From positions 1 to 7,385 of the forward strand of contig JAUVLC010000113.1 of assembly GCA_030595925.1 (NCBI GenBank): a stretch of 7,385 bases of DNA, in the 5' to 3' direction. A program made the position numbers and the translations under genes. The notes beneath the pieces were generated by a model. That model did not search any database. It was not told the DNA's origin and saw nothing but the letters and a program-made list of their open reading frames with translations. Positions 1,348 to 5,168 of the stretch are shown here, piece by piece (the first letter of the stretch is position 1; each line of letters begins with the position of its first letter). The DNA is from Clostridia bacterium. Lineage in GTDB: Bacteria; CBDUZB01; JAGLHV01.

Positions 1348-1508
1348 TTTTTAAAAAATTCCTTTCTGGTTTTAGATTCTTAAAAATTCTGCAAAATATT
1401 TTTTTTTACCTTGTCGCCTATCCGTTCTACCTCTGGAAAAAACACTGTAACCTCAATTGTGGTCTGCCGATTTACCGGACTGTCCATTGAAAAAGCCTTT
1501 TTGTTTCT
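1348..1508. other. Intergenic DNA upstream of ugd with a possible gene remnant
   Basis: This spacer between the repeat at 1509-1594 and ugd holds the ugd ribosome binding site and, on the minus strand, a 35-codon open frame (1487 to 1380). Its C-terminal half reads TIEVTVFFPEVERIGDKVKK, which looks protein-like although I do not recognise it. The only start-side signal is a weak AAAAGG 8 nt before its ATG, and the frame stays open back through the repeat to the rfbD stop codon. It is more likely the tail of a gene whose front was replaced by the repeat than a functional small gene. No convincing promoter was identified. Confidence 0.3.
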
Positions 1509-1594
1509 GTCATTGCGGGCCCTTAAGGGCGTGGCAATCTCATTTTTCGATGAGAACGACGAGATTGCTTCGTCGCCCTGCTCCTCGCAACGAC
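1509..1594. repeat. GTCATTGCG-type palindromic repeat, copy A
   Basis: This 86-bp unit starts GTCATTGCG and ends CGCAACGAC, so the ends are near-perfect inverted repeats, with a second nested pair GCAATCTC / GAGATTGC. It aligns without gaps to 3634-3719, with about 74 of 86 positions identical. It begins 13 nt behind the rfbD stop codon. Repeats with this consensus are widespread in bacterial intergenic DNA. Unlike the second copy it has lost the outer inverted arms: on the left only a trace is left (GAAAAAGCCTTTTTGT, 1489-1504) and on the right nothing. Confidence 0.9.
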
Positions 1595-1607
1595 ATAAAA
1601 AAAATGT

Positions 1608-3490: not shown

Positions 3491-3593
3491 AATTTATCCT
3501 TTCTTTATAAATAGTAATGACAAAAATGTTCTATTTTTTTCAACCAGAATAATTATAAATTCATTCCCCTAAGACTATATTACAATTGTAGTT

Positions 3594-3756
3594 GCCTCAT
3601 TTAGAGATTGTTGAAAAAAGCCTTTTTGTCTCTGTCATTGCGAGCCCCCAAAGGCGTGGCAATCTCATTCTCCGACGATAACGACGAGATTGCTTCGTCG
3701 CTTCGTTCCTCGCAACGACACCTTACAGGAGTTTTTCAACAATCTCTTTATGAGGC
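3594..3756. mobile_element. MITE-like element with 25-nt inverted arms enclosing a palindromic repeat
   Basis: The core of the arms is a perfect 16-bp terminal inverted repeat: AGAGATTGTTGAAAAA at 3603-3618 and its reverse complement at 3732-3747. After two mismatched positions the symmetry resumes for seven more base pairs (GCCTCAT at 3594-3600, ATGAGGC at 3750-3756), giving 23 of 25 paired. The inside is the GTCATTGCGAG repeat described separately. There is no room for a transposase, so this would be a non-autonomous element or a large cruciform/hairpin. No direct target duplication is evident. The TTTTTCAACAATCTCT end resembles insertion-sequence termini, but I cannot name the family. Confidence 0.6.
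3634..3719. repeat. GTCATTGCGAG-type palindromic repeat, copy B
   Basis: This 86-bp palindromic unit is the same family as 1509-1594. The ends GTCATTGCGAG (3634-3644) and CTCGCAACGAC (3709-3719) pair at 10 of 11 positions, and GCAATCTC / GAGATTGC form a nested 8-bp stem. It is the interior of the larger inverted-repeat element at 3594-3756. Confidence 0.9.
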
Positions 3757-3858
3757 TTTCTTTGTTATTCATTTTGCTCAATACTTTGATTGCACCCAGG
3801 ATAAGTTCATTCTTTCCCCCATCTACTTAATGAGCAATCGCCTTTTAACATCTTAAAT

Positions 3859-3898
3859 AAATCCCCCTACCCCCCTTTTTCAAAGGGGGAAATTACTT
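3859..3898. repeat. CCCCCTTTTTCAAAGGGGG palindromic repeat, copy D1
   Basis: The unit is 40 nt long and contains an 8-bp stem (CCCCCTTT / AAAGGGGG) with a 3-nt loop, preceded by AAATCCCCC. It differs from the copy at 5096-5135 at one position in 40. It lies in the same orientation as the copies at 4046 and 5096. It lacks the outer GGTA-n-TGTC end found behind those two. Confidence 0.9.
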
Positions 3899-3918
3899 GT
3901 TATTCTAATCCCCTTTTA

Positions 3919-4046
3919 GAGTTGTGCAAAATAACACATTTTGTCATTCCGCACTTGATGCGAAATCTATAATGTTCTTAAATATCAATAGATTCCTGCT
4001 TCCGCAGGAATGACAATAAAGATGAAAAGTCTATTTTGCATAACTC
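3919..4046. mobile_element. MITE-like element with 15-nt inverted arms around a GTCATTCC-type palindrome
   Basis: GAGTTGTGCAAAATA (3919-3933) is the reverse complement of 4032-4046 except at one position, which would be a G-U pair in RNA. Nested inside are GTCATTCC / GGAATGAC (3943-3950, 4007-4014), AATCTAT / ATAGATT (3964-3970, 3988-3994) and a small CCTGC / GCAGG hairpin (3995-4008). GTCATTCC...GGAATGAC repeats are a common bacterial intergenic family. The architecture (unrelated outer arms around a GTCATT palindrome) parallels 3594-3756. It has no coding capacity and seems to interrupt a C-rich repeat. Confidence 0.6.
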
Positions 4047-4110
4047 CTAACCCCCTTTTTCAAAGGGGGAAATTGCTTATCATTTCTTTCATTAAATTTT
4101 CGACATTACC
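4046..4110. repeat. C-rich palindromic repeat D2 with solo transposon-like end
   Basis: The first 33 nt match the copy at 5096-5135 at 32 positions. The similarity to the DUF559-flanking end continues outward for about 40 nt more, ending on the minus strand in GGTAATGTCGAAAAT (4110 to 4096) against GGTAGTGTCAAGAAT at 5168. The end lies five nt from the stop codon of the epimerase gene. It appears to be a solo or remnant end of the same element that carries the DUF559 gene. Its left AAATCCCC arm seems to be displaced to about 3907-3913 by the element at 3919-4046. Confidence 0.75.
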
Positions 4111-4571: not shown

Positions 4572-4658
4572 GTTTTCCTCCTATTTTTTTAAACGGTATT
4601 GTCAAAAATATTCAGTTAATTCATTTATATCTGTAACAATTGCAAAGCTTTTTGTTAA

Positions 4659-4734
4659 AAGTAATTGCCTCCCCCCCCCTTGAAAAAGGATATGATATTA
4701 TCTCCCCCTTTGAAAAAGGGGGTTGGGGGGATTT
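4659..4734. repeat. Inverted C-rich repeat D3: one complete plus one degenerate unit
   Basis: The complete unit (4703-4734) is the reverse complement of the family core, with one mismatch in 32 to 5096-5127. Next to it, 4659-4690 is a shortened, diverged unit in the same orientation, recognisable by its AAGTAATT end and CTTGAAAAAGG but with a C9 homopolymer (4671-4679) in place of CCCCC. The complete unit touches the DUF559 stop codon. Confidence 0.8.
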
Positions 4735-4737
4735 TAT

Positions 4738-5092
4738 TCATATTCTTTCTTTTACTACCTGCTCAATCACTTCCATAACAGAATCCAGTTCTTGCAAAAC
4801 TTGTAAATTGTTAAAACGCAGGACAGATAATCCCTTGTTTTTCAAGTATTTATCTCGTTGTGCATCTTTCCGTTCCTTATCCAATTCCATGTGTTGTGAA
4901 CCATCCACTTCTACTACAATCTTGGGATACATAAAAATCTACAATATAGCTCCCAATAGGCTTCTGCCGATAAAATTGAACCTTCAAAATTTGTTTTCCC
5001 CATAACCGTGCCCATAAGACCCTTTCACTATTTGTCATTTCCCTGCGTAATCGACAAGCATTGTGTTTTAAATTCGCGTTGTATTTTAACAC
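4738..5092 (-). pseudogene. DUF559 (Vsr-like PD-(D/E)XK fold) endonuclease-domain protein, frameshifted
   Basis: The two halves of one DUF559 protein lie in different frames. The first frame (from GTG at 5092) gives LRREMTNSERVLWARL (15-30) and RQKPIGSYIVDFY (42-54); the second, ending at 4738, gives KIVVEVDGSQH, then a basic helix and GLSVLRFNNLQVL. The family order RREMT-SERxLW, RxQxPIGxYIVDF, ExDGxQH, LRFxN is complete, and the intact length would be about 120 residues, normal for the family. The frame changes at about 4924-4933. Homologues usually have two more residues between IVDFY and the VEVDG strand, so a deletion of about 5 nt explains the shift better than a single-base error. Start and ribosome binding site come from the flanking repeat. 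These proteins are predicted nucleases of the Vsr/PD-(D/E)XK type; the biological role is unknown. Confidence 0.85.
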
Positions 5093-5108
5093 CTTAAATC
5101 CCCCTAAC
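5090..5108 (-). promoter_or_regulatory. Ribosome binding site of the DUF559 gene supplied by the repeat
   Basis: On the minus strand the outer G-tract of the repeat (AGGGGG) is followed by ATTTAAG and the GTG start, a spacing of 7 nt. The same G-tract competes with the inner G-tract for pairing with the CCCCC stem, so translation could depend on which hairpin forms; that part is inference. Confidence 0.5.
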
Positions 5109-5168
5109 CCCCTTTTTCAAAGGGGGAAATTACTTTTCATATTTTTTCATCTAATTCTTGACACTACC
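5096..5168. repeat. C-rich palindromic repeat D4 and outer end, upstream of the DUF559 gene
   Basis: The 40-nt core (5096-5135) contains CCCCCTTTTTCAAAGGGGG, an 8-bp stem with a TTC loop. Beyond it the sequence runs to an outer end which on the minus strand reads GGTAGTGTCAAGAAT. The same outer segment is seen at 4096-4110 and, inverted, at 4595-4609. It lies 19 nt from the asnB stop codon. Confidence 0.85.

Follow-up and report, generated by a model that had tools for sequence, protein, structure and literature searches.

Why does a small nuclease gene lie between two inverted copies of a palindrome that also occurs, far from that gene, at many other places in the same genome? The locus that raises this question is part of a 7,385-bp stretch of DNA (the window), which is contig C10 of a genome of 2.6 Mb in 193 contigs, named G000 here. 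Judging by its open reading frames, the window encodes a sugar-nucleotide cluster with a UDP-sugar dehydrogenase, rmlD-, rmlB- and rmlC-like genes and an asparagine synthase. The rmlC-like gene on one side and the asparagine synthase gene on the other are the neighbours of a 574-bp element. From the outside to the inside, it is built of 13-bp inverted ends, two inward-facing 34-nt repeat units and a DUF559 gene (Table 1), with about 4 nt between the repeat units and the DUF559 reading frames. An earlier note on this DNA had placed oppositely oriented repeats within 4 nt of the gene and inverted ends beyond them, and the coordinates are as it described. It had further proposed that nuclease and palindrome form a single unit with the logic of REP/RAYT systems, and it had missed the frameshift in the gene, the G-rich tail of the repeat and the separate nature of the outer ends. 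To our knowledge, DUF559 is a common domain with no agreed role, and the BoxC family of repeats, to which we compare the palindrome below, has gone for about 30 years with no known partner.

Table 1. Features of the DUF559 element and of related repeats in the window.
Feature	Position	Strand	Basis
Complete mobile shell with DUF559/triplex-repeat module, 574 bp	4595..5168	- (cargo gene minus)	matching ends and alignment of copies
Terminal inverted repeat GGTATTGTCAAAA, 3' side of gene	4595..4607	+	49 exact genome copies of GGTANTGTCAAAA
Opposite terminal inverted repeat TCTTGACACTACC	5156..5168	-	match to left end
Predicted triplex-repeat unit, hairpin CCCCCTTT-GA-AAAAGGGGG and tail TTGGGGGGATTT, tail facing gene	4701..4734	+	equals the 34-nt solo unit; alignment
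Second predicted triplex-repeat unit, inverted, tail facing gene	5096..5129	-	alignment; equals the 34-nt solo unit
Additional, degenerate hairpin fragment on the outer side of the left unit	4670..4689	+	repeat listing
DUF559 (PF04480) nuclease gene, frameshifted near 4923/4924	4738..5092	-	Pfam on both halves; alignment with intact L009, L011
Reading frames of the broken DUF559 gene	4877-5092 and 4738-4932	-	reading frames
Further predicted triplex-repeat unit and its tail, separate from the DUF559 element	3859..3892	-	genome pattern search
Further hairpin copy with degenerate tail, beside eroded shell end 4097-4110 (TTTTCGACATTACC)	4039..4072	-	repeat listing and end search

The outer shell aligns with about 16 other copies, mostly at 86-95% identity over the best-aligned parts. 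Its 13-mer end, GGTANTGTCAAAA, is found in 49 exact copies genome-wide against none for the reversed pattern, and at 4595 the terminal repeat adjoins the ribosome-binding site of the epimerase-like neighbour gene. Sister copies are flanked by 8-bp target duplications (TCTATTAA in L009 and AAAACGAG in L022); none was seen around the window's own copy. The same outer ends recur on an insertion sequence, L066, with transposase pieces resembling IS6 (a match below the curated cut-off), on short MITE-like elements in G000 and on two RAYT-carrying shells, L070 and L075. Within one genome, the same type of shell thus carries a REP-RAYT module in some copies and a DUF559-palindrome module in others. 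By the L066 ends and the duplications in L009 and L022, the shell classifies as an IS6-type MITE. Assignment of the outer GGTA-TGTC ends, which the earlier note had described around the palindromes, to the palindrome unit was rejected, because the ends are common to an IS6-like insertion sequence and to RAYT shells. The outer layer of the element is a hitch-hiker's vehicle, as these common ends and the multiplication of a shell with a dead nuclease gene indicate.

The RAYT-like tyrosine transposase genes (L070 1103-1699 and L075 2599-3246) score 77.6 bits with NCBIfam NF047646 against a cut-off of 80, and inverted GCAGGCTTTAGCCTGC palindromes lie on either side of them inside the GGTANTGTCAAAA shell. 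The shell end 3' of the cargo gene is almost always located directly upstream of a neighbour's ribosome-binding site (window 4574-4595, L009, L010, L011, L018, L019, L037, L038, L055, L061 and L062), a strong bias of insertion or retention. At window 3510-4110, a second, eroded shell (AGTAATGACAAAAA ... TTTTCGACATTACC) is probable; it would contain a 106-nt repeat as well as the palindromes at 3871 and 4051. The 106-nt repeat is interspersed, with copies at window 1490-1595 and 3615-3720 that are 88% identical (CATTGCG...GGCGTGGCAATCTC...TTGCTTCGTCG...CTCGCAACGAC), and a further interspersed family of the GTCATTCCGCA...GGAATGACA palindrome type occupies window 3942-4015. Contig C53 of G000 (L077 2227-2804) holds an intact DUF559 gene with nearly the same outer ends and a palindrome of another family (CCCTCCC..GGGAGGG); a tandem copy of one end lies beside that element.

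The cargo gene of the window is broken. Pfam confirms the DUF559 identity proposed in the earlier note, in two pieces, which match PF04480 at positions 2-52 and 53-108 of 109 (E 8e-14 and 1e-14; 51.9 and 54.6 bits, with a curated cut-off of 20.6). The break is a 5-bp deletion with its junction at about 4923/4924, and in the alignment at least five other copies (L014, L015, L019, L020 and L021) have the same deletion, with L009, L011, L012 and L013 intact there. A programmed frameshift was ruled out, the 5-bp deletion being absent from the intact copies, and a shell with a dead nuclease gene has multiplied in this genome. G000 contains 24 PF04480 matches at about 17 loci, with the palindrome at most 100 bp away at nearly all of them; the clear exceptions are two 426-aa PF04480 proteins of other architecture. 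In a profile search, the closest solved structures were 3hrl (DUF559) and 3r3p (a mobile-intron endonuclease). The match to the solved DUF559 structure 3hrl gives the fold, and DUF559 belongs to the PD-(D/E)XK/Vsr-like nucleases. PADLOC returned only weak, partial matches for DUF559 and no convincing defence match, and a defence role was set aside on that account. In Caulobacter, an SOS response in vivo is due to the DUF559 protein VsrA and has been ascribed to accidental double-strand breaks; VsrA has also been proposed to be a mismatch-repair enzyme (PMC12907096).

The flanking repeats have more structure than a palindrome. Copies of CCCCCTTTTTCAAAGGGGG stand in opposite orientations at 4704-4722 and 5108-5126, and a G-rich tail, TTAGGGGGATTT, completes the repeat unit: past the hairpin, a short linker (TTA, TTG, CTA, CCG and others) leads to a second G-rich tract. 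The consensus of the BoxC/PIT/TM repeats consists of a C-tract, a loop, a G-tract, a short linker and a second G-tract (Holder et al. 2015, PMC4666352), and the unit here has the same layout of C-stem, loop, G-stem, TTA/CCG linker and G-rich third strand. Scored by purine-motif rules (G.G:C, A/T.A:T), tails match their own stem at 0.772, compared with 0.676 (sd 0.0115) when tails were dealt among loci, and all 200 deals fell below the own-stem match, as expected of a third strand. The tail thus covaries with the stem, so that a three-strand geometry is kept and not just a sequence. Triplex formation has been observed in vitro with E. coli TM sequences (PMC4666352), and for the window's unit it is predicted. 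On its layout and stem-tail match, we assign the palindrome and its G-rich tail to the BoxC/PIT/TM family of intrastrand-triplex repeats. In the DUF559 flanks of L134, L156, L167 and L188 (mostly alphaproteobacterial), a second small hairpin replaces the 3-nt linker and is followed by the G-rich tail.

Away from the gene, the repeat behaves as a discrete unit. The palindrome has about 107 copies in G000 (at most 3 mismatches) against 0-2 for a reversed-pattern control, and an alignment of solo copies defines the conserved unit as TTTCCCCCTTTGAAAAAGGGGGTTAGGGGGATTT. This sample comprised 41 exact copies away from most DUF559 loci, one of them in a contig-end element. The G-rich tail is kept in 39 of the 41, conservation spans -3 to +30 with background level on either side, which gives sharp 34-nt borders, and 23 of the 41 have no flank in common with another copy. 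In other genomes, gene-less inverted pairs are found, with hairpins about 65-115 bp apart and mostly oriented as in the DUF559 bracket. Bounded units at many unrelated sites and gene-less pairs that resemble the bracket fit the earlier note's claim that solo copies are the nuclease's offspring, in which spreading by the nuclease is the part that we infer. Side cases include a solo inverted triplex pair that apparently lies within the linker-coding part of a pyruvate dehydrogenase subunit gene (L252 289-407) and solo triplex pairs around which an additional inverted repeat (about CCAAGTTGCTACCTA) forms another MITE-like shell (L257 and L258).

If the shell accounted for everything, palindrome and gene in G000 would be inert cargo of an IS6-mobilised element. 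The sharing of ends among the DUF559 shell, the IS6-like L066 and the RAYT shells, the 8-bp target duplications and the amplification of a dead DUF559 copy are all compatible with such hitch-hiking, which nevertheless explains the shell only: shells contain a minority of the sampled solo copies of G000, and the association of DUF559 with the repeat recurs in many phyla where the shell is missing. Because the association crosses phyla, hitch-hiking is insufficient, and we regard it as highly improbable.

The evidence from other bacteria carries the association well beyond the window's genome. In 145 genomes, mostly of distinct genera or families, standalone DUF559 genes repeatedly lie between inverted C-rich palindromes whose sequences vary and whose plan is constant. 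The 80 named loci come from Nitrospirota, Chloroflexota, Planctomycetota, Omnitrophota, Melainabacteria, several proteobacterial classes and others. With a bracket defined as an inverted local-alignment score of at least 15 between the 250-bp flanks (L119 was left out for a false score from an N run), 54 of 73 DUF559 genes of named genomes are bracketed; in the same loci, this score was reached at 3 of 740 random places and by 7 of 890 ORFs. Gammaproteobacteria were sampled separately, with ranking by profile score only, and there 29 of 38 DUF559 genes had brackets versus 0 of 30 ParE toxins. Complete three-part units reach a density of 3.04 per kb next to DUF559; the remainder of these loci has 0.105 per kb, and shuffled sequence has none. 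The arrangement is also directional: 32 of 41 pairs point towards the gene and 4 of 41 away from it, and the tail faces the DUF559 gene for 43 of 51 units upstream of it and 43 of 52 downstream. These results bear out the proposal in the earlier note that nuclease and palindrome form a unit, one that recurs far beyond this genome, and they include the comparison with other genes that it had suggested.

The association extends to copy number. In an even sample of 276 genomes from the class of Dyella (Gammaproteobacteria), with the repeat defined as CCCTCTCCC-N(2-14)-GGGAGAGGG, at least 10 copies are present in 27 of 60 genomes with a strong DUF559 match versus 8 of 216 without one (Fisher p=3.5e-14, kinship ignored), and the median is 8 copies with and 0 without. 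None of 27 genomes with only a weak DUF559 match reaches 10 copies. Dependence of the repeat on the gene is not strict: DUF559 was not detected in 8 of 35 repeat-rich gammaproteobacterial genomes, nor in G001 and G002, which have repeats, and about a quarter of DUF559 genes have no bracket. DUF559 genes free of flanking repeats are a sign that, according to the earlier note, would speak against the unit; they exist, as do repeats in genomes with no detected DUF559, against an overwhelming enrichment. Alternatively, the repeats could be general structure-forming sites of recombination or termination around a gene with an unrelated job, such as mismatch repair or defence, linked to it through shared transfer by homologous recombination. 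Other genes are occasionally bracketed (an ABC transporter in L135, a succinyl-CoA ligase-like gene in L177), and the mismatch-repair role proposed for Caulobacter VsrA (PMC12907096) would suit a passenger, but brackets around other genes are far rarer (the ORF and ParE counts above), the genome-wide copy-number link and the prevailing inward orientation are not predicted, and the PADLOC search lends no convincing support to a defence job. We judge this explanation quite unlikely.

Orthologous sites allow genomes with and without the module to be compared directly. In E. coli K-12, ycjD is a DUF559 gene whose 3' end is overlapped by a C-rich hairpin, and about 170 bp downstream comes TMECO no. 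9 (1351239-1351204; Table 1 of Holder et al., PMC4666352); ycjD has no two-sided bracket, and unit 9 is oriented away from it. The ycjD region was found in 3333 of 5426 genomes, and in the other genomes examined eefRABCD is found between fabI and sapF. E. coli genomes that lack ycjD were ruled out as clean empty sites, since ycjD and BoxC are swapped together for eefRABCD; the swap has been described, with BoxC unmentioned (PMC12817139). The E. coli solo sites hrpB-mrcB and tauD-hemB differ in the presence or absence of the repeat, with no target duplication. At hrpB-mrcB, a deletion between arms of about 10 bp has reduced a BoxC pair to one hairpin (L203 and L204), and by analogy scars of this type are conceivable at empty DUF559 sites too. 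In 30 Rhodanobacteraceae, one intergenic site holds DUF559, mostly with its bracket, in 18 genomes and is empty in 12; a single C-rich hairpin remains at three of the empty sites (L345, L346 and L349) and may represent either a target or the scar of a deletion. The presence of DUF559 at one site common to many Rhodanobacteraceae indicates that the gene is not very mobile there, and the DUF559 tree is too poorly resolved to prove transfer.

Such sites would also be expected of a homing-type element: DUF559 would cut its target, repeat pairs or hairpins that lack the gene, repair would then copy the gene into the cut site, and the flanking repeats would serve as homology arms. The gene does lie inside a repeat pair, gene-less pairs of the same orientation are common, the three hairpins sit exactly at the empty Rhodanobacteraceae sites, and the relative 3r3p is a mobile-intron endonuclease. 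Against this, solo repeats far outnumber copies of the gene, inheritance at the Rhodanobacteraceae site looks vertical, and the single hairpin reads equally well as a deletion scar between 10-bp arms, as in E. coli L203 and L204. Homing is unlikely in our estimation.

The reading that we favour, with somewhat better than an even chance of being right, is a two-part system: a DUF559 nuclease between inward-facing BoxC/PIT-type repeats, with solo and paired copies elsewhere, where the nuclease acts on the fold in trans. Bracketing, orientation, recurrence across phyla, covariation of stem and tail, the copy-number link and the dispersal of solo units are directly supported here. On becoming single-stranded or being extruded, as may happen at a replication fork, the repeat would fold into a C-G-G triplex hairpin; the DUF559 nuclease would recognise the triplex fold in trans and nick or cut there; repair and replication would then copy, move or keep repeat units. 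Recognition, cutting and mobilisation of the repeat by DUF559 are thus what we infer from these patterns, and DUF559 is the first good candidate enzyme for handling BoxC-type repeats. More tentatively, and with chances that we place a little below even, DUF559 may be a dedicated structure-reading nuclease that creates, moves and maintains BoxC-type repeats in many phyla, including E. coli, a triplex-based system convergent with RAYT/REP. Each component was known already; the pairing of DUF559 with BoxC appears to be unreported, as no report of it was found in the open-access literature searched. The link gives a testable function to each partner, in E. coli K-12 itself through ycjD.

Compared with known systems, the repeat is closest to BoxC/PIT/TM as described (PMC4666352), with which it shares the C-tract, loop, G-tract, 3-nt TTA or CCG linker and second G-tract, as well as mostly intergenic positions, many copies and inverted pairs. 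E. coli has 23 copies of that motif, and Holder et al. never found transposase or integrase remnants near them (PMC4666352); in contrast to that description, which includes no mobility gene, DUF559 is the associated gene here, and the window's version has A/T positions (CCCCCTTT / AAAGGGGG / GGGGGATTT). Likeness to the MITEs of IS6-type elements, in outer inverted repeats and 8-bp duplications, covers the shell family and not the inner DUF559 module. With the Vsr-like homing endonuclease 3r3p, a mobile-intron protein, the module shares a related nuclease (profile E 5.5e-6) and a gene inside a repeat pair, but it has no intron or intein and many gene-less repeats. The REP/RAYT systems (REPtrons; PMC3733652) offer the closest parallel in logic: an enzyme gene between inverted palindromes, solo units and inverted pairs elsewhere, and co-occurrence of enzyme and repeat. 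Of the REP/RAYT logic put forward in the earlier note, the inner module retains the bracket, the dispersed solo copies and the copy-number link, the outer ends drop out, and spreading would be driven by the nuclease. Unlike in REP/RAYT (PMC3733652), the gene is PF04480, a PD-(D/E)XK nuclease and not an HUH Y1 (IS200-like) tyrosine transposase, and the repeat is a triplex-type unit, TTTCCCCCTTTGAAAAAGGGGGTTAGGGGGATTT, whose palindrome carries neither a GTAG nor a CGTC tag at its foot. The DUF559 module works like REP/RAYT and is no member of it, which suggests that partnerships of this kind have at least two origins, with unrelated enzymes and DNA structures.
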